Below, piece by piece: positions 15,935 through 32,708 of a stretch of 43,821 nucleotides of DNA. The DNA is from Chthoniobacterales bacterium. GTDB taxonomy: Bacteria; Verrucomicrobiota; Verrucomicrobiia; Chthoniobacterales; UBA6821. The stretch's first letter is position 1; each line of letters opens with the position of its first letter. The DNA is taken from positions 1 through 43,821 of the forward strand of contig JAPJNA010000066.1 in the NCBI GenBank assembly GCA_026461395.1, written 5' to 3'. The notes beneath the pieces were generated by a model. It worked only from the letters and a program-made list of their open reading frames with translations. It did not search any database and was not told where the DNA came from. Both the position numbers and the translations under genes were made by a program.

Positions 15935-16190
15935 CAAGAAACGGTAATGTAGGATATTCTTTTAACGCCCCGCGACGAGCAAGCAATGGAATGGGCACTG
16001 CTGGCGATCCATTTTTGTAAGAAATCACCTAGTGAATGTTGCTCCCGATCGGGAGCACCAGATCCAATAGGAAATGCATTATCTGGGGGGTGAAGGAAAG
16101 AAGGACCTTCCAGATCAGCTATCAAGTTAAAGGCCTCAGCGCGGATTCAAAAAAGCGTGAAAGCCTCGGGGTGGCGTTTGCTGACGCCCC
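15935..16190. other. Divergent control region of TPR-peptidase and XRE regulator
   Basis: These 256 bp hold no gene. The only clear structure is the 18 bp palindrome at 16040-16057, 105 bp from one start and 133 bp from the other. Promoter boxes are not clear. Confidence 0.4.
16040..16057. promoter_or_regulatory. Palindromic operator, copy 1
   Basis: TGCTCCCGATCGGGAGCA is a perfect 18 bp palindrome, with flanks TT before and CCAGA after. The arms match the copies at 16499-16516 and 24074-24091 exactly. Its position upstream of the XRE gene suggests autoregulation. Confidence 0.7.
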
Positions 16191-16484
16191 ATGAATGCAC
16201 TCAATATCATTGGTCCTAAAGTAAGTTGGCATCGCAACCGCATTGGCTGGTCCCAGGACATGCTGGCGGCAAAGTTACAAATCCTCGGGATGGAGAAGGT
16301 CAGCCGGGCAAAGGTCTCCAAGATCGAGGCGCAGATCATCTGGGTCTCGGATTCCGATATCTACTACCTGGCGGAGGTTCTCAATGTCGGCCTGCACGAC
16401 CTCTTTCCCGAGGCTCTTAGCGACCCGAAGGTACTCGCGAACAACATGCGGGAACTGAGGAAGCGACGTGTCTTTAAAAAATAA
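16191..16484 (+). CDS. XRE-family transcription regulator of the conjugation region
   Basis: A 97-residue protein that is almost entirely an XRE/Cro helix-turn-helix domain: VSWHRNRIGWSQDMLAAKLQ for the first helices, a recognition-helix region VSRAKVSKIE, then a helix with YYLAEVLNVGLHDLFP. Such proteins bind short palindromes as dimers. It precedes the type IV secretion operon by 67 bp. The same palindrome stands before this gene, before virB2 and before virB9, so it is the best candidate to bind all three and set conjugation expression. That binding is inference. Confidence 0.82.
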   Translation: MNALNIIGPKVSWHRNRIGWSQDMLAAKLQILGMEKVSRAKVSKIEAQIIWVSDSDIYYLAEVLNVGLHDLFPEALSDPKVLANNMRELRKRRVFKK

Positions 16485-22879: not shown

Positions 22880-24013
22880 ATGACCTATATCCATCAACGT
22901 AAAGAGTGGCCCGAGTTCCGATGGAACGAGGCGAGGCTGCTGCCACTTTTGGCAAAGGTCAGGCATCAGCAGGGGCGGCTGCTTGGACAAATGGAGGGAC
23001 TCGGTTTCCATCTCCGTGGTGAGGCCAACCTTGCAAGCCTCACCAGCGAGGTGATCGGGTCCAGCGCGATCGAGGGGGAAAAACTCGATGCGGAGGAGGT
23101 GCGCTCCTCGATTGCGAGACGCCTGGGGATTGTTGATGCGGGGGTGGCCCCTGTGAATCGTCACGTCGAGGGGGTTGTTGAGATGATGCTCGATGCTACT
23201 CGCAAGTTCGGCGAAGCACTCACAGCCGAGAGACTCTTTTCATGGCATGCGGCTTTATTTCCAAGCGGGCGTAGTGGGATGAGACGCATCACCACGGGAG
23301 CATGGCGTACCGGGGAGGATGGCCCCATGCAGGTGGTCTCCGGAGCGATGGGGCGGGAAAATGTTCATTTTGAGGCCCCGGATGCAGACCTCCTTGATGA
23401 GGAGGTCTGCCGCTTCCTGGAATGGTTCGAGAGAAGCACGACGATTGATCCTGTTCTCAAGGCTGGCATTGCACATTTCTGGTTTGTGACGATCCACCCG
23501 TTTGAAGACGGCAATGGCCGTATTGCCAGGGCCATTGCAGAGTTGGCGCTCGCAAGGGCGGACGGCGTGGCGGAGCGTTTTTACAGCATGTCCACGCAGA
23601 TCGAGAAGGAGCGGAAGCAGTATTACGATTCGCTGGAAAGCAGCCAGCGCGGAACCATCGACATCACGCTGTGGCTGGAGTGGTTCCTGGGTTGTCTGGA
23701 CAGAGCGCTGGAACATGCCCAGATAAGCCTTCGTGGAATCCTGCATAAGGCGAGGGTCTGGGAGCGCATCAACCAAGACGGCCCGGTGAATGAACGCCAG
23801 CATGCGGTGATCAACCGTCTGCTCGACGGGTTTGAGGGAAAACTTTCCACCTCCAAGTATGCAAAGATTGCGAAGTGCTCTGCGGACACTGCGCTTCGCG
23901 ACATCAACGACCTGCTGGTACGAGGCCTGATGCTTCGGGAAGATGGGGCAGGAAGAAGCACCGGCTATCGTCTCGCGGAGCCGGTTGCCGAGAAGACTCG
24001 AAAAGAATTGTAG
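22880..24013 (+). CDS. fic: Fic-family AMP-transferase with winged-helix domain
   Basis: A 377-residue protein. The N-terminal domain (about 1-95, DUF4172-like) carries the inhibitory helix motif SSAIEG (Ser61, Glu65, Gly66), which blocks the active site until relieved. The Fic core contains HPFEDGNGRIAR starting at His206, a complete H-x-F-x-[D/E]-G-N-G-R-x-x-R motif, so AMPylation activity is expected. The C-terminal part (about 310-370) looks like a winged helix (LSTSKYAKIAKCSADTALRD). It sits between virB8 and virB9 on its own promoter. Roles could be toxin, secreted effector or regulator; its target is unknown. Confidence 0.9.
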   Translation: MTYIHQRKEWPEFRWNEARLLPLLAKVRHQQGRLLGQMEGLGFHLRGEANLASLTSEVIGSSAIEGEKLDAEEVRSSIARRLGIVDAGVAPVNRHVEGVVEMMLDATRKFGEALTAERLFSWHAALFPSGRSGMRRITTGAWRTGEDGPMQVVSGAMGRENVHFEAPDADLLDEEVCRFLEWFERSTTIDPVLKAGIAHFWFVTIHPFEDGNGRIARAIAELALARADGVAERFYSMSTQIEKERKQYYDSLESSQRGTIDITLWLEWFLGCLDRALEHAQISLRGILHKARVWERINQDGPVNERQHAVINRLLDGFEGKLSTSKYAKIAKCSADTALRDINDLLVRGLMLREDGAGRSTGYRLAEPVAEKTRKEL

Positions 24014-25980: not shown

Positions 25981-26657
25981 AGTACCTCCTCTGCATTCCA
26001 CTGATCTGCGCCGTCTCGGGCTGCGCCACACACAAAAACGTGAATCCCGAAAACTATCCTGCTGTTGCCGGAACCAGCGTTCCGCAGAGCACACTTTCCA
26101 GAGTCCGCACTTCTGAAGTCGTGAAATCCTATCCGACGGGAAGGTACACCGATCCTGACTTCCCGGACGATATGCATGAGCGGCACACACTCTACCGCAA
26201 GGAGCAGTCTGCCGATTGGAACTACAGGCCGGGAGGGCCGTATGCCTACCCGCTGGTCGTTTCTGATCCGACTCCCTCTTATTACGTCAAGACGGATGGG
26301 GATCAGCGTAACTCCCAGCAGAAGGCCTTTGCGGCGGCTCTGGAGGAACAGAACACCGCCATGAAGAAGCGGATCGAGTCGCTTCAGAAGGATTCGGACA
26401 AGGTGCCGATCCTTGAAAACCAGGTGAAGGATCTGAAGGAGCAGCTCGATGCCGAGCCCCTCGCATCACCTGCTCCCAAGAAACAGGACCCTTCGGAGGA
26501 AAAGCCCACAGGGTTTTCGGAGGCAGAGGATCCGCAGGGCGATCTTATTGCCGAGATGAAGCTCAATGATGAGCTCAACGGGGAACTTGATGCGCTGGAG
26601 GGAAGGCGGCGCTTGGTTCTGATGGATGCCGCTTTCCTCAACATCCTTACACCATGA
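25977..26657 (+). CDS. Conjugation-associated lipoprotein with coiled coil
   Basis: A 226-residue lipoprotein (signal ending VSGC, Cys16). The first half has the conserved-looking phrase RVRTSEVVKSYPTGRYTDPD followed by MHERHTLYRKE, which I associate with proteins encoded just after TrbI in several conjugation operons. The second half is a coiled coil (about 118-150) and an acidic Pro-rich linker. It is probably an envelope partner of the VirB9-VirB10 core. ATGA overlaps join it to virB10 and to the next small gene. Confidence 0.75.
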   Translation: MKYLLCIPLICAVSGCATHKNVNPENYPAVAGTSVPQSTLSRVRTSEVVKSYPTGRYTDPDFPDDMHERHTLYRKEQSADWNYRPGGPYAYPLVVSDPTPSYYVKTDGDQRNSQQKAFAAALEEQNTAMKKRIESLQKDSDKVPILENQVKDLKEQLDAEPLASPAPKKQDPSEEKPTGFSEAEDPQGDLIAEMKLNDELNGELDALEGRRRLVLMDAAFLNILTP

Positions 26658-26896
26658 GCAAACCCACCACTGTTGCCGTCACTCTGGATCCCGAGAGCTA
26701 CGCGATTTTTCAAGAGGCTGTCTCCCTGACCGAGAGTGCCGGAGCAAAGGTCACGGTCAGCCAGCTCCTCCAACACCATCTTCATGACGAAATCCGGAAA
26801 CAGAACCCCCGGAGAATAGCCCAGCGTTTCCTCAAGTCGGTCGTTCAGCAGATCAGGGTGACCCCTTTCGGGGAAACCCTTGGACGAAAGGTCTGA
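26654..26896 (+). CDS. Small basic protein, possibly ribbon-helix-helix
   Basis: An 80-residue protein whose start (TTVAVTLDPESYAIFQEAVS) looks like a beta strand followed by helices, reminiscent of ribbon-helix-helix DNA-binding proteins; the tail is basic. The resemblance is weak. It overlaps the preceding lipoprotein gene by ATGA and is the last gene of the secretion transcript before a structured 62 bp gap. Confidence 0.6.
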   Translation: MSKPTTVAVTLDPESYAIFQEAVSLTESAGAKVTVSQLLQHHLHDEIRKQNPRRIAQRFLKSVVQQIRVTPFGETLGRKV

Positions 26897-27375: not shown

Positions 27376-27681
27376 ATGCATGAAGTAACCGAAGAGAAGG
27401 ATAGTGACGCCTTTGAGGGGGCTGCTCAGGCGGTCGTAATGATCAGTACATCTGAAGTCCCGAAAGGGGATCCGCCAGGTGTTCATCCTAGCGCAGAGTT
27501 CATCAGTTCAAAGGTCGCTGCGGCCTGGATGGGCCTGCCGCTCCGATCATTCCTTCAGTACGTCCAGATGGGTGAGCTTCCAAGTTACAAGATTGGTAAA
27601 CACCGGCTATTTCGGCGCAGTGAGCTTCTTAAGGCGATAGGAGCGACTCGAAGAGCTACCTGGGACGAGATCCTTCGGTGA
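27376..27681 (+). CDS. Excisionase-like helix-turn-helix protein
   Basis: A 101-residue protein. The first 45 residues are low in structure. Residues about 48-90 form a MerR/Xis-type winged helix-turn-helix: FISSKVAAAWMGLPLRSFLQ, then the wing LPSYKIGKHRLFRRSELL. Such proteins bend the ends of an integrated element and direct the integrase to excise it. The ATG at 27376 is preferred over a TTG two codons earlier. Its last 75 bp overlap the convergent integrase gene, and a terminator lies directly upstream, so it must have its own promoter or rely on read-through. Confidence 0.78.
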   Translation: MHEVTEEKDSDAFEGAAQAVVMISTSEVPKGDPPGVHPSAEFISSKVAAAWMGLPLRSFLQYVQMGELPSYKIGKHRLFRRSELLKAIGATRRATWDEILR

Positions 27682-29019
27682 TGCCTTTTTCTTGGGTTTC
27701 TTGGCAGATCCCTTCTTCTCGGGCCTTTTACCTGAATCATCTACCTGCCCGTTACCGGGTTTTTTCCTGATGCCCGGCATGATGCCGAACCACTCCTCTG
27801 CATCCTCCGGAGTGACCAACTCACGGTAGTTCTCAAAAAGCTTCCTGGGACTGTTTCCCATTTCCAAGGCCACCTGAGCGGCATTCTGGGTTTGAGCGAG
27901 CCTGTAGGAGGCAAAGGAATGGCGGAATCCATTGTGGACCCGGGCGAACCCCACGAGATCTGCTGATTGGCTGAACTTAGACATCAGGGTCGAGTCATGG
28001 GCAAACCGGGGACAGGGAGTCTCTCCCGTCTTGTCCTTGTATCGGGTGAGCCACGCTTTGAGGTTCGGCAATATCGGAACCAGCCTTCTGCTGGCTGTTT
28101 TGGCCTTCTGGGCAGCCACCTCGATGTAACCCTTTTCCAGCCATACATCTTTCCAATCCAGCCGGTGTAGTTCGGCTGACCTCATTCCCGTGAATGCAGC
28201 AATCGACACAAAGGGAACCCACCTGTCGTCGATTGATGAGAGGAGATTTTTGATCTCCTTCGGGGTGTAAATGCCCGGGGCCTTGTTCGCGGTCGCTTTG
28301 ACTTTCTTGACCCTCTCGACGGCTGTCCTTTCATTTTCAGGCAAATAGCCCTGATTTCGGGCATAGGTGAAGAGACTGGCTAGAGACGTGCGGTAGTTAT
28401 TCCTTGTCCTTCCCCTGGCCTTTATTGAATCCAACCACTCATCAATCTTGGTCGTTGTTATGTCTTGGACATCCGTTGAAAACGACTTCACTGCGAGTCT
28501 CAGGCGCGCCTGTGTATCCTGCTTGTAACGATAGGAGTTGTCCGTGATGGAGAGCAGGTACTTGTCCATCAGTTCCTTGAATTTTATCTGCGGGATTTTC
28601 CGCTTCTTGTCCTCTCGGACAAAGAACTGTGCCGCCTCGGAAAGGGTGCCTTGCCCGTTCAGAATTCTGAGGGCTTCAACATACTCACGCACGGCTCTTG
28701 AGATAGGTACGTCGAATGCCTTCAGAGATTCACCTACGTCTTTAAGGACTGCTGCCTGGGCAGCTGAAAATGTCACCCCTCCATGCGCCTTACCGCTGGC
28801 GAGTTCTTCAATGAGTTCCCTGGCCCTTTTTCTTGCCGACTCGATTGAGGAGGTTCTCTCCCTGTCGCGCTTACCTTCCTTGTAATAGGAGAGCTGAAAA
28901 CTCGTCACCCCACGCACAGGGCTGCTATAGATAGGCACCTTGATACCCTTGCCTTCGATGACCTCAATCGGACCTCTCTTCTTTTTCAGTGATTTGGATG
29001 TCATGAGGGTACAACTCAA
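27607..29019 (-). CDS. int: Tyrosine-type site-specific integrase
   Basis: A 470-residue phage-type integrase. A core-binding (SAM-like) domain lies at about 145-235, the catalytic domain at about 245-420. Catalytic residues: Arg280 in AFTGMRSAEL, Arg366 in HNGFRHSF, nucleophile Tyr398 in GNSPRKLFENYRELV. Asn363 stands where HxxR has His, and GNSP replaces the usual GHSS, a variant pattern I associate with PVC-group integrases. A 50-residue basic, Lys/Pro/Ser-rich tail lies antisense to the excisionase gene. The start is 73 bp from the attachment-like core at 29092, as expected for an integrase at the end of its element. Confidence 0.92.
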   Translation of the reverse strand: MSCTLMTSKSLKKKRGPIEVIEGKGIKVPIYSSPVRGVTSFQLSYYKEGKRDRERTSSIESARKRARELIEELASGKAHGGVTFSAAQAAVLKDVGESLKAFDVPISRAVREYVEALRILNGQGTLSEAAQFFVREDKKRKIPQIKFKELMDKYLLSITDNSYRYKQDTQARLRLAVKSFSTDVQDITTTKIDEWLDSIKARGRTRNNYRTSLASLFTYARNQGYLPENERTAVERVKKVKATANKAPGIYTPKEIKNLLSSIDDRWVPFVSIAAFTGMRSAELHRLDWKDVWLEKGYIEVAAQKAKTASRRLVPILPNLKAWLTRYKDKTGETPCPRFAHDSTLMSKFSQSADLVGFARVHNGFRHSFASYRLAQTQNAAQVALEMGNSPRKLFENYRELVTPEDAEEWFGIMPGIRKKPGNGQVDDSGKRPEKKGSAKKPKKKASPKDLVPGSSSSRSYRLKKLTAPK

Positions 29020-29081
29020 AGCTTATTTGTCCTGCATCTGTCCTGCAAGCCACTTTTTGAGGTTTTTCCTCTGTAGACCGA

Positions 29082-29109
29082 ACGTGTTCGAATCCCGTTA
29101 GGGTGGCCA
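29082..29109 (+). other. Attachment site candidate: tRNA 3'-end-like sequence
   Basis: ACGTG-TTCGAAT-CCCGT-TAGGGTG-G-CCA reads as a T-stem, T-loop, acceptor strand, discriminator base and CCA of a tRNA. One stem pair is mismatched. No 5' half of a tRNA precedes it. Elements often integrate into tRNA 3' ends and leave such a fragment at the far side; the integrase starts 73 bp away. The intact tRNA would lie left of the window. The implied first base C is unusual for a tRNA, so the tRNA reading is not certain. Confidence 0.5.
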
Positions 29110-29227
29110 ACTTTGTTGGCAATCGCCGCAAGGCGAATTCGAACCCGTAGGGTTTGACTGCCATGCCGCGATCAGCGGCATTACTCTTTTCTGCAGGGAA
29201 ATTGCAGAGCCTGCCATTGGCAGGATC
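29092..29227. repeat. 136 bp hairpin-chain repeat, unit 1
   Basis: The unit starts with the 18 bp core ATCCCGTTAGGGTGGCCA and contains seven short stems in a row: CCC/GGG, GCCAAC/GTTGGC, TCGCC-GCAA-GGCGA, AACCC/GGGTT, ATGCCGC/GCGGCAT, TCTGCA/TGCAGA, CCTGCC/GGCAGG. It is followed without gap by unit 2. Confidence 0.85.
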
Positions 29228-29363
29228 ATCCCGTTAGGGTGGCCAACTTTGTTGGCAATCGCCGTAAGGCGAATTCGAACCCGTAGGGTTTGACTGCCAT
29301 GCCGCGATCAGCGGCATTACTCTTTTTCGCAGGGAAATTGCAGAGCCTGGCATCGGCAGGATC
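29228..29363. repeat. 136 bp hairpin-chain repeat, unit 2
   Basis: Same length and order of stems as unit 1, with only a few base differences. One changes the tetraloop GCAA to GTAA, both of the GNRA class. Two others weaken stems near the end. The 18 bp core opens it (29228-29245). Confidence 0.85.
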
Positions 29364-29603
29364 ATCCCGTTAGGGTGGCCACTCTCCCGAGTGGCTCTTC
29401 CGCCTCTTAAAGCCCTTAAATAAAGGCTCTACAGGCGGTCGCCATTGCTCAACCAAAAACGACAGGAAGAGTCACTTTGGCCAGATCTGTGTTACCTTTT
29501 GTTACCTGTACTTTGGAGCGCGGGACTTGAGAGATCTCAAGATCGTTTCTTACGGGCCTCAAGACGTGGCATGGGTGCCTAAAATGAGATCCCAGTGGGA
29601 CTG
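29364..29603. repeat. Third core copy and divergent hairpin region
   Basis: The 18 bp core recurs at 29364-29381, but the following sequence differs from units 1 and 2. In the place of GCCAAC/GTTGGC is another stem, GCCACTC-TCCC-GAGTGGC (29378-29395). A longer imperfect hairpin CCGCCT...AGGCGG follows at about 29400-29438. The rest, to the stop of the toxin kinase gene at 29604, holds no gene that I can support. Confidence 0.6.
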
Positions 29604-30572
29604 CTATGCTTTAGCCTCTTCTGGGTTTTTCACTAGTCGCTGCCACCTATCCAAGACCAGGTTTCGGTAGCGGTCTTTGGTCTCCCGTGAACACAATCCG
29701 CGTTCAATCACGGATAAAAGCCCGGGAAGTCCCTTTTCGATGCGGCGCAAGGAATTCGCCATCTGACGCTCTGTGAGCTGCAGGGACGCTCCGCAGGCCC
29801 GGAAGTTCTTCAACTCAAGACGCTTTTTCTTGCCGTTAATTGTTAGAGCGGATTCTTCGGTATCGGATGGCAGGAGTAGAAAAGTCGGCAGCAGGTCATA
29901 GGAAGGAGAAAAACGGATCTCTCCCTCAGAGCTTCGGATCAGGGAAAAGTTTTTGAAATGCATGTCTGCATTGCCTGTAAGGAAGCAAAAGAGCATAACC
30001 TCGTAGAATCTCAGGACATCAAACCCGGGATTGCCACAATGCTTCAGAATGATCCTGCCAACGCTCTCGATGGAGCCTCGGTATTTTTCCTCCGCAAGCT
30101 TGTCCCCAAGCTGACACATATCCTCCATGGCAAGCTTCTCACCTTTCACTCGATCCATCCGAAGGACGATTAGAGCCTTCTTTCCATCCTCTAGGTCAAT
30201 GATGCCACATGCTGCGGTCTCAATTCCCAAGCCCTTGGCCATTTGCATGGTGAGGTGCTCCAACTCAGGCATCTCGGGGAATCTTTCTACCGCGGGCTTC
30301 AGGATGTATCCACCATCCAAACCTACAAGGGTTAGACACCCTGAATCGGATCGCCCAGCGCGTTCAAGGTGCAGGGAGAGCTTAGGTTGTACACCTGGAA
30401 CGGCGATATGCTGTCGCACTACCTGCTCAGCCAGCGCATCGAGATCTTTCCCTGAATAGGGAAGCTTGGGCGGATGTGACGACCCAAAGAGCTTTCGAGA
30501 GCAGGAGGGATGGTAGTCGGATGCTGCATCTTCAATCGGCTCCAGACAGATTTTGCAGACACGTTCACTCAT
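29604..30572 (-). CDS. hipT: HipT-like Ser/Thr kinase toxin (HipA C-terminal type)
   Basis: A 322-residue HipA-family kinase lacking the usual N-terminal subdomain, which is encoded separately next door. The N-terminus has a CKICLEP...YHPSCSRKLFG cysteine motif typical of split HipA kinases. The phosphate-loop phrase GVQPKLSL has Ser66, the usual autophosphorylation position. The catalytic segment GNADMHFKNFSLI contains Asp203, and SPSYDLLPT follows. HipA kinases phosphorylate aminoacyl-tRNA synthetases and stop growth. Start overlaps the hipS-like gene by 8 bp. The three-gene layout matches tripartite HipBST systems. Confidence 0.87.
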   Translation of the reverse strand: MSERVCKICLEPIEDAASDYHPSCSRKLFGSSHPPKLPYSGKDLDALAEQVVRQHIAVPGVQPKLSLHLERAGRSDSGCLTLVGLDGGYILKPAVERFPEMPELEHLTMQMAKGLGIETAACGIIDLEDGKKALIVLRMDRVKGEKLAMEDMCQLGDKLAEEKYRGSIESVGRIILKHCGNPGFDVLRFYEVMLFCFLTGNADMHFKNFSLIRSSEGEIRFSPSYDLLPTFLLLPSDTEESALTINGKKKRLELKNFRACGASLQLTERQMANSLRRIEKGLPGLLSVIERGLCSRETKDRYRNLVLDRWQRLVKNPEEAKA

Positions 30573-30900
30573 GATTTACCTCCTCGCTGATGGGCGCGAC
30601 GCCCACCGCTCCAATGCAATCACGGCAACAAGCCAAGAGTAAGCCCATCCGGTCTCGCGGGTTCAGCTTCCAAGTACTCTCGGCGATGTCGAGCAACCAC
30701 CCCTCTGGGATCAGTCCATCGAAAAATGGAAAGAGGCGCTTGTCCTCATACGCCTCCGACTGCAGCGGGAGTGACAAACTCACAGGCAAAGCATTCGGAT
30801 CCTTCAAGTGCTCTCGCTGGTAAGTGAAGCGATATCCACCTTCTATCTCCTCCAGCAGCCCGACCGGACGATCATTCAAAAGGACTTCAGCTTTTCTCAT
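30565..30900 (-). CDS. hipS: HipS-like protein (HipA N-terminal subdomain), likely antitoxin
   Basis: A 111-residue stand-alone version of the HipA N-terminal domain (couple_hipA family): VLLNDRPVGLLEEIEGGYRF, then LPVSLSLPLQSEAYEDKRLF, PFFDGLIPEGWLLD, and a DRMGLLLACCRDCIGAV end. In known HipBST operons this small protein, not HipB, neutralises the kinase. It overlaps the regulator gene by 14 bp and the kinase gene by 8 bp, so the products are made in step. Length and borders fit the family well. Confidence 0.85.
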   Translation of the reverse strand: MRKAEVLLNDRPVGLLEEIEGGYRFTYQREHLKDPNALPVSLSLPLQSEAYEDKRLFPFFDGLIPEGWLLDIAESTWKLNPRDRMGLLLACCRDCIGAVGVAPISEEVNHE

Positions 30901-31111
30901 CGCCTACCTCCTTGCGAAACGGCGCAGGTTCCATTCTGTGGCCGAAGAGCGCCATGACCTGGTTGACCTTATCGAGGCGCAGAGTTTGCTTACCCTGTTC
31001 AAGTTCGCGGATGAACCTCAGCCCAAGCCCAGCCCGATCGGCCAACTCGAGTTGCGTCAAACCTAAGGCCCTCCTTTTGGCCTTCACGAATTGAATCAAG
31101 GTATCGTTCAT
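30887..31111 (-). CDS. hipB: HipB-like XRE regulator
   Basis: A 74-residue helix-turn-helix protein: FVKAKRRALGLTQLELADRA, then LGLRFIRELEQGKQTLRLDK, a textbook XRE/HipB domain. It should bind the ACCC-N4-GGGT palindromes upstream (31119-31212) and repress the operon. First of three overlapping genes (hipB, hipS, hipT). No long C-terminal tail, as usual for HipB of the tripartite type. Confidence 0.88.
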   Translation of the reverse strand: MNDTLIQFVKAKRRALGLTQLELADRAGLGLRFIRELEQGKQTLRLDKVNQVMALFGHRMEPAPFRKEVGDEKS

Positions 31112-31118
31112 AAAATAA

Positions 31119-31216
31119 ACCCGATAGGGTATAAATATCTCTGAATTTATGGTTACTATACCCGATAGGGTACATCAAGGGGATATTTTAAGAAAAAGTA
31201 CCCTTTCGGGTATAAT
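31119..31216. promoter_or_regulatory. hipBST operator array and divergent promoter
   Basis: Three palindromes stand 40-41 bp apart: ACCCGATAGGGT (31119-31130), ACCCGATAGGGT (31160-31171) and TACCCTTTCGGGTA (31199-31212). The spacing is about four helical turns, so bound dimers would share one face. A consensus -10 box TATAAT (31211-31216) overlaps the third copy and points right, with a possible -35 TTAAGA at 31188-31193. The hipB start lies 7 bp from the first copy. Confidence 0.8.
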
Positions 31217-31241
31217 CCTAGGTGGATTATGGATTTCTCCT

Positions 31242-31459
31242 ATGAATCTCAATCCATCAGATCCTCAAGTCCGCACGCTCCAGCAAAGCTTGCATGCCCT
31301 TGCTGACGCAATCACTCAACTCGCTAGAGTTTGTTCACCAAAGGAGGAAGATGCAGGGGTGTAGCAAAGCTCGGAAAGCAGCATCTCTTTCGCCGGAAAG
31401 AGCTCCTTGACGCTCTTAGAGCCAAACGAATGGCCACTCTCGCAGAAATCCTTCGGTAA
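31242..31459 (+). pseudogene. Decayed second excisionase gene
   Basis: Codons 31364-31459 read AKLGKQHLFRRKELLDALRA and end in AEILR-stop. Over 30 residues about 19 match the end of the intact excisionase (27376-27681), including GK, LFRR, ELL and EILR. Just upstream, in another frame, a 40-codon piece (31242-31364, MNLNPSDPQVRTLQQSLHAL) has the charged helix common at the start of such proteins. The helix-turn-helix core between them is missing, so an internal deletion with frameshift is the simplest reading. The homology of the 3' part is clear; the link to the 5' part is inference. Confidence 0.65.
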
Positions 31460-31514
31460 AAAAGTTTAGACGCAGAAACCCCCGGTGGATTTTACAGGTT
31501 ATTTTTCTCCTTGG

Positions 31515-31532
31515 TGCTCCCAATTGGGAGTA
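31515..31532. promoter_or_regulatory. Palindrome resembling the conjugation operator, copy 4
   Basis: TGCTCCC-AATT-GGGAGTA, with a perfect 14 bp palindrome inside (31517-31530). The left arm matches copies 1-3 exactly and the right arm differs at one base. No gene follows it to the right before hemB, so it looks like a relic of a second element rather than a working site. Confidence 0.5.
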
Positions 31533-31536
31533 ACAC

Positions 31537-31632
31537 GGGTTTGACTGCCATGCCGCGATCAGCGGCATTACTCTTTTCTGCAGGGAAATCGCAGAGCCTG
31601 CCATCGGCAGGATCATCCCGTTAGGGTGGCCA
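31537..31632. repeat. Truncated hairpin-chain repeat, unit 3, with fourth core
   Basis: Positions 31537-31614 match the last 78 bp of units 1 and 2 (from GGGTTTGACTGCC on). They are followed by a fourth 18 bp core ATCCCGTTAGGGTGGCCA at 31615-31632. The first 58 bp of the unit are absent. This marks the outer edge of the repeat zone; 62 bp later hemB begins. Confidence 0.8.
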
Positions 31633-31694
31633 GATTCCCGGTTAGATGAACGCGAGTGCCTTGACTAGCCGCTTGAGTCGGGGAAGATACATGG

Positions 31695-32708
31695 ATGAGC
31701 ATGACGCGATCCGGACTTGATCTCCTACGCAGGATGCGGCGCAACCGCGCCACACCCGCCGTGCGTTCGCTGGTCCGAGAGACTGTTCTGCGTCCGGAGG
31801 ACTTGATTCAACCACTGTTTGTCCGTGCGGGTGAGGGAGTTTCCGAGCCTGTGGAGTCGATGCCCGGAGTGGTCCGGCATACGGTTGAGTCGCTGGTCGA
31901 GACGTGTCGGCACCTGGAGCAAGTCGGAATCAGGGCAATGGCGATTTTCCCCTGCATTGAGGGCTCGAAGAAGAACCCCGAGGGTTCCCATGCCAATGCC
32001 TCGGAGAATATTCTTTTCTCTGCGATTCGAGCGGTTAAGGAGGCTTGCCCCGGCTTAGCCATCATCGCTGATGTGGCTCTCGATCCCTACACCGACCATG
32101 GCCATGATGGCTTGCTGGATGCCCGTGGTGAAGTCGACAATGATTCCACGGTTGAGGCGCTGAAGAAGCTGGCCATAGCGCAGGCGGAAGCCGGAGCGGA
32201 TATCGTCGCACCATCTGACATGATGGACGGGCGGGTGAAGGCGATCCGCATGGCGCTGGATGCCGCCGGATTTCATGGTACGGGAATTCTAGCTTATGCC
32301 GCCAAATATGCCTCCGCTTACTACGGACCCTTCCGGGATGCAGTGAAGAGCGGTTCCGGCAAATCGATCCCCAAACTCGATAAACGGGGCTACCAGATGG
32401 ACCCTGGTAATGTACGTGAGGCTCTGCATGAGGTGAAACTCGACGAGGAGGAGGGGGCCGACATGGTGATGGTGAAGCCTGCTGGTCCGTACCTAGATAT
32501 TATCCGGGCTGTGCGCGGGCACACACTACTTCCTGTCGCGGCCTATCAGGTCTCTGGCGAATATGCCCAGATCCATGCAGCCGCCCGGTTGGGATGGCTC
32601 GATTACGAGGCAACGAGGGATGAATCCCTGCTGGCCATCAAGCGCGCCGGAGCTGACATGATCCTGACCTATTTCGCGGCCGAGGTCGCGGCATCGCTGC
32701 AAGCATGA
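31695..32708 (+). CDS. hemB: Delta-aminolevulinic acid dehydratase (porphobilinogen synthase)
   Basis: A 337-residue enzyme that joins two 5-aminolevulinate molecules into porphobilinogen in heme and tetrapyrrole synthesis. Both active-site lysines are present: Lys204 in AYAAKYASAYYGPFRDA and Lys261 in MVMVKPAGPYLDI. The metal loop reads DVALDPYTDHGHDG, with Asp where zinc enzymes have Cys, so it is the Mg/K-dependent type. Full family length. The next gene overlaps it by ATGA. It is the first clear housekeeping gene to the right of the integration zone. Confidence 0.97.
   Translation: MSMTRSGLDLLRRMRRNRATPAVRSLVRETVLRPEDLIQPLFVRAGEGVSEPVESMPGVVRHTVESLVETCRHLEQVGIRAMAIFPCIEGSKKNPEGSHANASENILFSAIRAVKEACPGLAIIADVALDPYTDHGHDGLLDARGEVDNDSTVEALKKLAIAQAEAGADIVAPSDMMDGRVKAIRMALDAAGFHGTGILAYAAKYASAYYGPFRDAVKSGSGKSIPKLDKRGYQMDPGNVREALHEVKLDEEEGADMVMVKPAGPYLDIIRAVRGHTLLPVAAYQVSGEYAQIHAAARLGWLDYEATRDESLLAIKRAGADMILTYFAAEVAASLQA

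Follow-up and report, generated by a model that had tools for sequence, protein, structure and literature searches.

Elements without integration and transfer genes in which attL and attR are kept are known as CIMEs (PMC5704250). The Streptococcus CIMEs resemble the locus described here in having no integration or transfer genes, in being bordered by attL and attR and in lying in tandem with an ICE at a tRNA-type site (PMC5704250). The report on the Dehalococcoides ssrA islands (PMC3146451) describes a similar tandem arrangement at a tRNA-like 3' end with crossover in the T-loop, some of the islands being integrase-less, and its authors suggest CIMEs. These tandem islands are a close precedent.

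The window, the whole stretch of DNA analyzed (43,821 nucleotides), corresponds to contig C41 in a draft genome of 2.03 Mb (G000). Most of the named members of the host genus in the genome collection are Spartobacteria MAGs, and the genus probably lives in fresh water. The initial annotation described positions 31242-31632 as the worn end of a second element of the same family as its intact neighbor, with hipBST stranded between the two. The tRNA-Glu/hemB site was indeed used by a second element of related ancestry, an intact relative in the congener G006 having the same order of xis, palindrome, core, repeat and hemB. One part of that description that is not supported is an ICE like the intact one, as the relatives of the second element are integrase-less and its right end is unlike those of both ICE types. 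The preferred reading, with a probability of about 0.8, is that 29382-31541 is a decayed integrase-less satellite at the tRNA-Glu/hemB site carrying hipBST as cargo, with a helper ICE most likely supplying the integrase. The scar reads as the right end of this small decayed mini-element, both ends of which are present. The features are listed below with window coordinates and strand.

27379-29109, no strand given: right end of the resident ICE with xis, integrase, arm sites TTTGTCCTG/CTGTCCTG and attR core; the whole ICE is seen in G004
27379-27681, plus: xis of the resident ICE, part of its right end
27607-29019, minus: integrase of the resident ICE, part of its right end
29110-29363, plus: two more chromosomal tRNA-Glu trailing repeats, separating the ICE right end from the mini-element, from repeat comparison
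29364-29381, plus: core copy (tRNA-Glu 3' end, ATCCCGTTAGGGTGGCCA), left border of the mini-element, where the G006 left-end match begins
29382-29508, plus: mini-element left end with the conserved AAATAAAGGCTCTACAGGCG block and two arm-like sites, matching congener left ends
29604-30572, minus: hipT toxin kinase, cargo, frame intact (Pfam HipA_C, 2e-42)
30565-30900, minus: hipS, cargo, HipA N-terminal domain protein (Pfam Couple_hipA, 1e-26)
30887-31111, minus: hipB, cargo, HTH antitoxin (Pfam HTH_3, 1e-7)
31242-31459, plus: broken xis with N and C termini kept, HTH middle deleted and a frameshift, from alignment with G006 Xis
31487-31533, plus: right-end signature of GGATTTTACAG, 15 nt and the GGTGCTCCCAATTGGGAGTAA palindrome, a layout common to nine right ends
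31526-31541, plus: 5' part of the former attR, 16 nt equal to tRNA-Glu 40-55 (GGGAGTAACACGGGTT), exact match
31537-31541, plus: probable deletion joint GGGTT, the remaining attR (CGAATCCC...) and first part of the next repeat being gone, from alignment with G006
31542-31632, plus: rest of the chromosomal tRNA-Glu trailing repeat with core, outside the mobile element, from G003, G008, G012 and G004

The 18-bp core corresponds to the 3' end of tRNA-Glu(UUC). An intact copy of this tRNA gene is found at G000:C14:6734-6809 with the ICE left end (paired TTTGTCCTG arms, palindrome and left gene) behind it. The congener G004 has the same ICE on one contig, extending 75.5 kb from tRNA-Glu to an att beside hemB (tRNA-Glu 26602-26677, xis 100496, att 102199, one trailing repeat, hemB 102424), and this layout therefore gives the order of the site as tRNA-Glu, ICE, att, repeats and hemB. 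The scar lies between the last repeats and hemB; G004 has no satellite at this site. The ICE integrase is 99.4% identical between the window and G004 compared with 91.5% for hemB, which suggests a recent exchange of the 75.5-kb ICE between the two genomes. A Fic/DUF4172 protein is encoded at 22880-24013 amid the ICE conjugation genes. The hemB gene is divergent beside tRNA-Glu in G003, G008, G012, G014 and G015 and co-directional behind the repeats in G000, G004 and G006, a difference in orientation (31615-31697 in the window) that is a rearrangement at the insertion site.

The excisionase C terminus noted in the scar is genuine, with 19 of 30 residues (63%) identical to the resident Xis including the EILR-stop ending. 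The tail spans 31364-31459, its frame at 31367-31456 reading KLGKQHLFRRKELLDALRAKRMATLAEILR followed by a stop, and matches the window Xis with an E value of 8.8e-4 in a whole-genome tblastn. Identity with the Xis of G006 is higher at 21/30 (70%), with a BLOSUM62 score of 96 that none of 2000 shuffles reaches (maximum 45). The start codon and N terminus are also kept, as 31242-31349 (MNLNPSDPQVRTLQQSLHALADAITQLARVCSPKEE) aligns with the N terminus of G006 Xis with a score of 45 (shuffle maximum 42, 0/2000), weaker than the tail and significant. Position 31242 is thus an apt start for the segment, because the xis N terminus survives from there. With 218 nt in the scar compared with 315 nt in G006, a net internal deletion of ∼97 nt separates the two, and by this alignment the scar xis is an internal-deletion pseudogene with the HTH middle gone and the frame shifted. 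A profile search of the genome-collection contigs with the Xis alignment gives only six loci, all of them congeners already found.

The near-copy of the conjugation operator also holds. A palindrome is present at 31513-31533, and 31513-31537 matches the ICE palindromes at 16038, 16497 and 24072, which lie on either side of an Xre-type HTH gene (16191-16484) and ahead of trb-like genes; the presumed role of the palindrome derives entirely from this position around the ICE Xre gene and trb genes. The right-end palindrome is an inverted copy of the one before the ICE left gene. The surrounding DNA (31367-31534) is 71% identical to G006 (blastn E 3e-17), and the right end also matches the tRNA-Val elements (E 8e-6). 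One half of the palindrome, GGGAGTAACACGGGTT, is at the same time an exact match to tRNA-Glu positions 40-55. The operator as a mere fragment of tRNA-Glu was rejected, as its left half and the upstream 40 nt match tRNA-Val mini-elements lacking such tRNA sequence. An Rfam scan of the window gives no match. Two differences separate the window right end from that of G006, namely the deletion in xis and a gap that begins at the attR T-loop and extends to the same GGGTT motif of the following repeat. The gap is most simply explained by loss of the DNA between two copies of GGGTT, which took out the attR core and left the element locked in place. The window copy would thus be dead, because xis has lost its HTH domain and the GGGTT-GGGTT deletion took the attR core. 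Another decayed mini-element with hipBA (G004:C13 5455-7330, L207; 89% DNA identity to that of G014) likewise has its attR core deleted, with a degenerate left palindrome and the start of the left gene remaining.

The truncated repeat with the core is real as a sequence and does not belong to the end of the element. Positions 31537-31632 share 96-98% identity with the 136-bp repeats found at 29150 and 29286, and they terminate in the 18-bp core. The repeat as a part of the element was rejected, because in G003, G008 and G012 a unit of 133-136 nt that terminates in the 3' end of the tRNA follows an element-free native tRNA-Glu gene, and in G004 the repeat neighbors hemB where a second element is lacking. 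None of these four genomes has the palindrome, GGATTTTACAG or the xis remnant at the corresponding place, which indicates that these three parts belong to the element and not to the chromosome. The four genomes lack the satellite at this place and G006 has an intact relative, and the segment is ordinary chromosome only in its repeat and core part, the xis tail and right end being absent from the four. The repeats precede the satellite in the window and in G002 and follow it in G006.

A wider family of tRNA-trailing repeats is found behind tRNA-Glu, Ser, Thr and Ala genes (29110-29381 and 31542-31632 in the window; L049, L050, L052, L060, L061, L062 and L067), with units mostly of 131-177 nt having a conserved stretch (TTCGACTGSCATGCCGCGATCAGCGGCA) and ending in a second copy of the 3' end of their own tRNA. 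In several units an upstream strand of the GGGAT/CGGAT type complements the 3'-end copy and varies with the tRNA. Matches occur in 13/16 genomes of the genus (at most 6 per genome) and in 0/6 genomes of the sister genus, with no Rfam match besides the tRNAs. The family resembles the E. coli tyrT repeats.

On the far side of hipBST, the stretch 29364-29508 shares 77.9% identity with the G006 mini-element left end (E 4e-28), so that alignment with related ends places a match to G006 at both ends of the window element. The left end is also 71-74% identical to those located at tRNA-Val and tRNA-Asp genes, the matches of 73-74% having E values of 1e-8 to 4e-10, and the congener left ends have in common a AAATAAAGGCTCTACAGGCG-like block and TTTGTTACC pairs, the arm-like sites in the window being TGTGTTACC (29488-29496) and TTTGTTACC (29498-29506). 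With this left end and the right end described above, hipBST therefore lies inside one element, and the earlier placement between two elements gives way to hipBST as the cargo of the second. The domains HTH_3, Couple_hipA and HipA_C correspond in order to hipB, hipS and hipT, and repeated ACCCGATAGGGT boxes are located upstream of hipB (31119-31172). The closest solved relatives of hipT are HipT of Legionella (E 3e-40), and the protein is 85-86% identical in G009 and G002. In G002 the same left end is followed by hipBST (81% DNA identity) at tRNA-Asp, with the end of hipT ∼100 bp behind the common left end as in the window, at different tRNA genes; the right end of the G002 hipBST element was not recognized. 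In G009 hipBST has no recognizable left end.

The relatives of the window element are mini-elements of 4-4.5 kb. The intact one in G006 (G006:C176) extends over 3.97 kb at tRNA-Glu/hemB in the order tRNA-Glu, left end with arms, palindrome, left gene, phosphoesterase, AbiEii/AbiEi, xis, GGATTTTACAG, palindrome, attR, repeats and hemB, and has no integrase match, no transfer genes and no relaxase-like gene among its Pfam hits. The gene content of the window element (29382-31541) is limited to hipBST and the broken xis; integrase, transfer genes, left palindrome and left gene are all missing. The tRNA-Val mini-elements have no integrase match and are also devoid of xis, which the family therefore does not always include. 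Toxin-antitoxin or defense genes are the rule as cargo. The right-end signature of GGATYTTACAG, exactly 15 nt and the palindrome is found in nine right ends from seven genomes, the window's and those of six other species (window, G006, two in G014, G001, two in G010, G005 and G004), located at tRNA-Glu and tRNA-Val. Seven of the nine have an intact core, with 4 more nt after the palindrome and then TTCGA of the T-loop. By sequence attL and attR are both kept in G006, G014 and G001; the window copy has a deleted attR core.

This right end is absent from both integrase-bearing ICE types, IntA and IntB, and an exact pattern search of the sister genus g2 finds none. IntA ICEs have TTTGTCCTG at both ends, with TTTGTCCTG/CTGTCCTG arms at the right end; IntB ICEs (G014, G003 and G001, at tRNA-Val) have TTGTTACC arms next to IntB, the G014 integrase being encoded at G014:C10:67626-68849. 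Arm sequences thus appear to track integrase type, TTTGTCCTG with IntA and TTGTTACC with IntB, and the satellite arms are TTTGTTACC. Searches of the window genome and G006 for a complete TTTGTTACC-type integrase of the IntB kind find none (best 45% and 30%); all genomes are draft MAGs, so that the integrase could sit on a missing contig. For other tyrosine integrases of the genus (L202, L203 and L204), the tRNA-like att is preceded by a doubled short motif specific to each, e.g. AATGGTAGGAAAATGGTAGG, and such motifs could be used for predicting arm sites. The window's own genome has a hipBA island with TTTGTTACC arms beside tRNA-Val(CAC) (G000:C77 2091-4370, L142), the other border of which is a full-length near-copy of the tRNA-Val gene with anticodon CTC, called tRNA-Glu(ctc) by ARAGORN.

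The movement of integrase-less copies is best seen in a mini-element with hipBA and a 795-amino acid protein, which is 98.6% identical over 4,564 bp between G014, where it is at tRNA-Val(GAC), and G001, where it is at tRNA-Val(CAC), and in G010 is 99.0% identical over 1,664 bp. The hemB genes are only 72.7% identical between G014 and G001 and 72.6-75.8% among the species of G014, G001 and G010. Near-identical copies in species this distant, at different tRNA-Val genes, indicate that integrase-free elements travel and that these copies have evidently moved recently between species and between tRNA genes, subject to MAG binning errors, the G014 copy being on a 134-kb contig. In G010 and G014 a second left end lies directly behind the mini-element attR, a tandem accretion.

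An unlikely explanation is that an ICE at tRNA-Glu lost its integrase and transfer genes in place and a second ICE accreted beside it. This follows the published CIME scenario (PMC5704250) and agrees with the decayed state of the window copy and with the left gene, palindrome and xis that ICEs and mini-elements have in common. However, the integrase-less right end with its fixed spacing occurs at two tRNA families with varied cargo and in near-identical, recent interspecies copies, and repeated decay in place would yield no single common right end, which argues that the elements moved after loss of the integrase. That only the two ends are mini-element and hipBST came separately is quite unlikely; the G009 hipBST without a recognizable left end is consistent with it, and the module may use other routes too, but the equal placement of hipT behind the same left end in the window and G002, and the toxin-antitoxin or defense cargo usual in the family, point to hipBST arriving inside the element.

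It is very improbable that the scar is a rearranged piece of the resident ICE, with the xis tail and palindrome duplicated from the neighbor and hipBST being ICE cargo. The protein family is the same and the ICE is only 4 kb distant, yet the scar is nearer to G006 Xis than to the resident Xis, the flanking DNA matches G006 and the tRNA-Val mini-elements and not the ICE, the left-end arms are TTTGTTACC and not TTTGTCCTG, and G004 has the same ICE with no satellite. Ordinary chromosome with a chance resemblance is hardly credible given the shuffle result for the xis tail, the DNA match of the right end and the lack of both at this place in G004, G003, G008 and G012, even with the repeat and core part (31542-31632) being chromosome.

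The family combines an ICE-like left end, made of the conserved block and paired TTTGTTACC arm sites, with a right end of GGATYTTACAG, 15 nt, the inverted ICE palindrome, 4 nt and the tRNA T-loop core. A co-resident ICE of the TTTGTTACC-arm type would most likely provide both integrase and conjugation functions in trans. Because arm sequences track integrase type, the enzyme acting on the satellite is proposed to be an IntB-type integrase from an ICE that is already resident or newly arriving; the resident integrase family with its TTTGTCCTG arms was rejected as partner, as the satellite arms are TTTGTTACC. The Xre-type regulator of the ICE, or the satellite's own Xis, could act at the palindrome beside attR leading to excision, with the DNA then transferred via the ICE conjugation apparatus, alone or in tandem. 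The window copy would have been a hipBST carrier first and fixed later, as the internal deletion took the Xis HTH, the GGGTT-repeat deletion took the attR core and the left palindrome and left gene disappeared, the hipBST frames staying open. It is possible, at somewhat less than an even chance, that satellites of 2-4.5 kb that have discarded the ICE integrase exist genus-wide, keeping the left arms, replacing the right arm by an ICE regulator operator 4 nt from the T-loop crossover, excising only when the helper ICE switches on and spreading toxin-antitoxin and defense cargo among tRNA genes and species.

Islands that lack an integrase and lie between att sites are commonly taken as dead remnants, and the near-identical copies in clearly different species show that elements this small remain able to travel. 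The fixed operator beside the crossover site offers a testable way of sensing a helper. Toxin-antitoxin and defense genes appear to ride on these ends, which is relevant to the accumulation of hipBST, hipBA and AbiE modules behind tRNA genes. Neither the window element nor its G006 relative has an integrase or conjugation genes of its own as an ICE would. IMEs carry their own integrase (PMC5357655), and in the mini-elements none is seen; the G006 element likewise has no Pfam hit resembling a relaxase. IMEs and mobilizable islands on ICEs or IncC plasmids (PMC5397120, PMC4542580) are alike in being activated by a helper regulator and carried by helper conjugation, as is proposed here. Genomic island GI21 of Shewanella putrefaciens with HipAB (PMC8978831) is similar in having a HipA-type toxin-antitoxin cargo stabilizing a composite island at a tRNA gene, but the S. 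putrefaciens islands are excised on expressing integrase and excisionase, whereas the satellites here are integrase-less with several cargo types. The tripartite HipBST toxin-antitoxin systems (PMC6581861, PMC10627512) have the same hipB-hipS-hipT order and split HipA, the only novelty being their place as satellite cargo. A full-text search covering part of the literature found no description of such satellites.

The nearest comparison is with the CIMEs, the gene content of which the window copy has, its attR now being broken. In contrast to the Streptococcus CIMEs (PMC5704250), the mini-elements have their own common right end, in some cases xis, and have moved recently between species and between tRNA genes; they thus seem to act as satellites that remain mobile, and to be more than passengers that have decayed in place. 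The shared right end and the copy at another tRNA-Val gene argue for movement in trans, with co-transfer with an ICE as a possible alternative. The Dehalococcoides ssrA islands differ in using a serine recombinase, and the excerpted report (PMC3146451) describes no conserved helper-operator end for the integrase-less ones. Compared with known integrase-less islands, what appears to be new here is the common dedicated right end together with good support for movement having continued once the integrase was lost.
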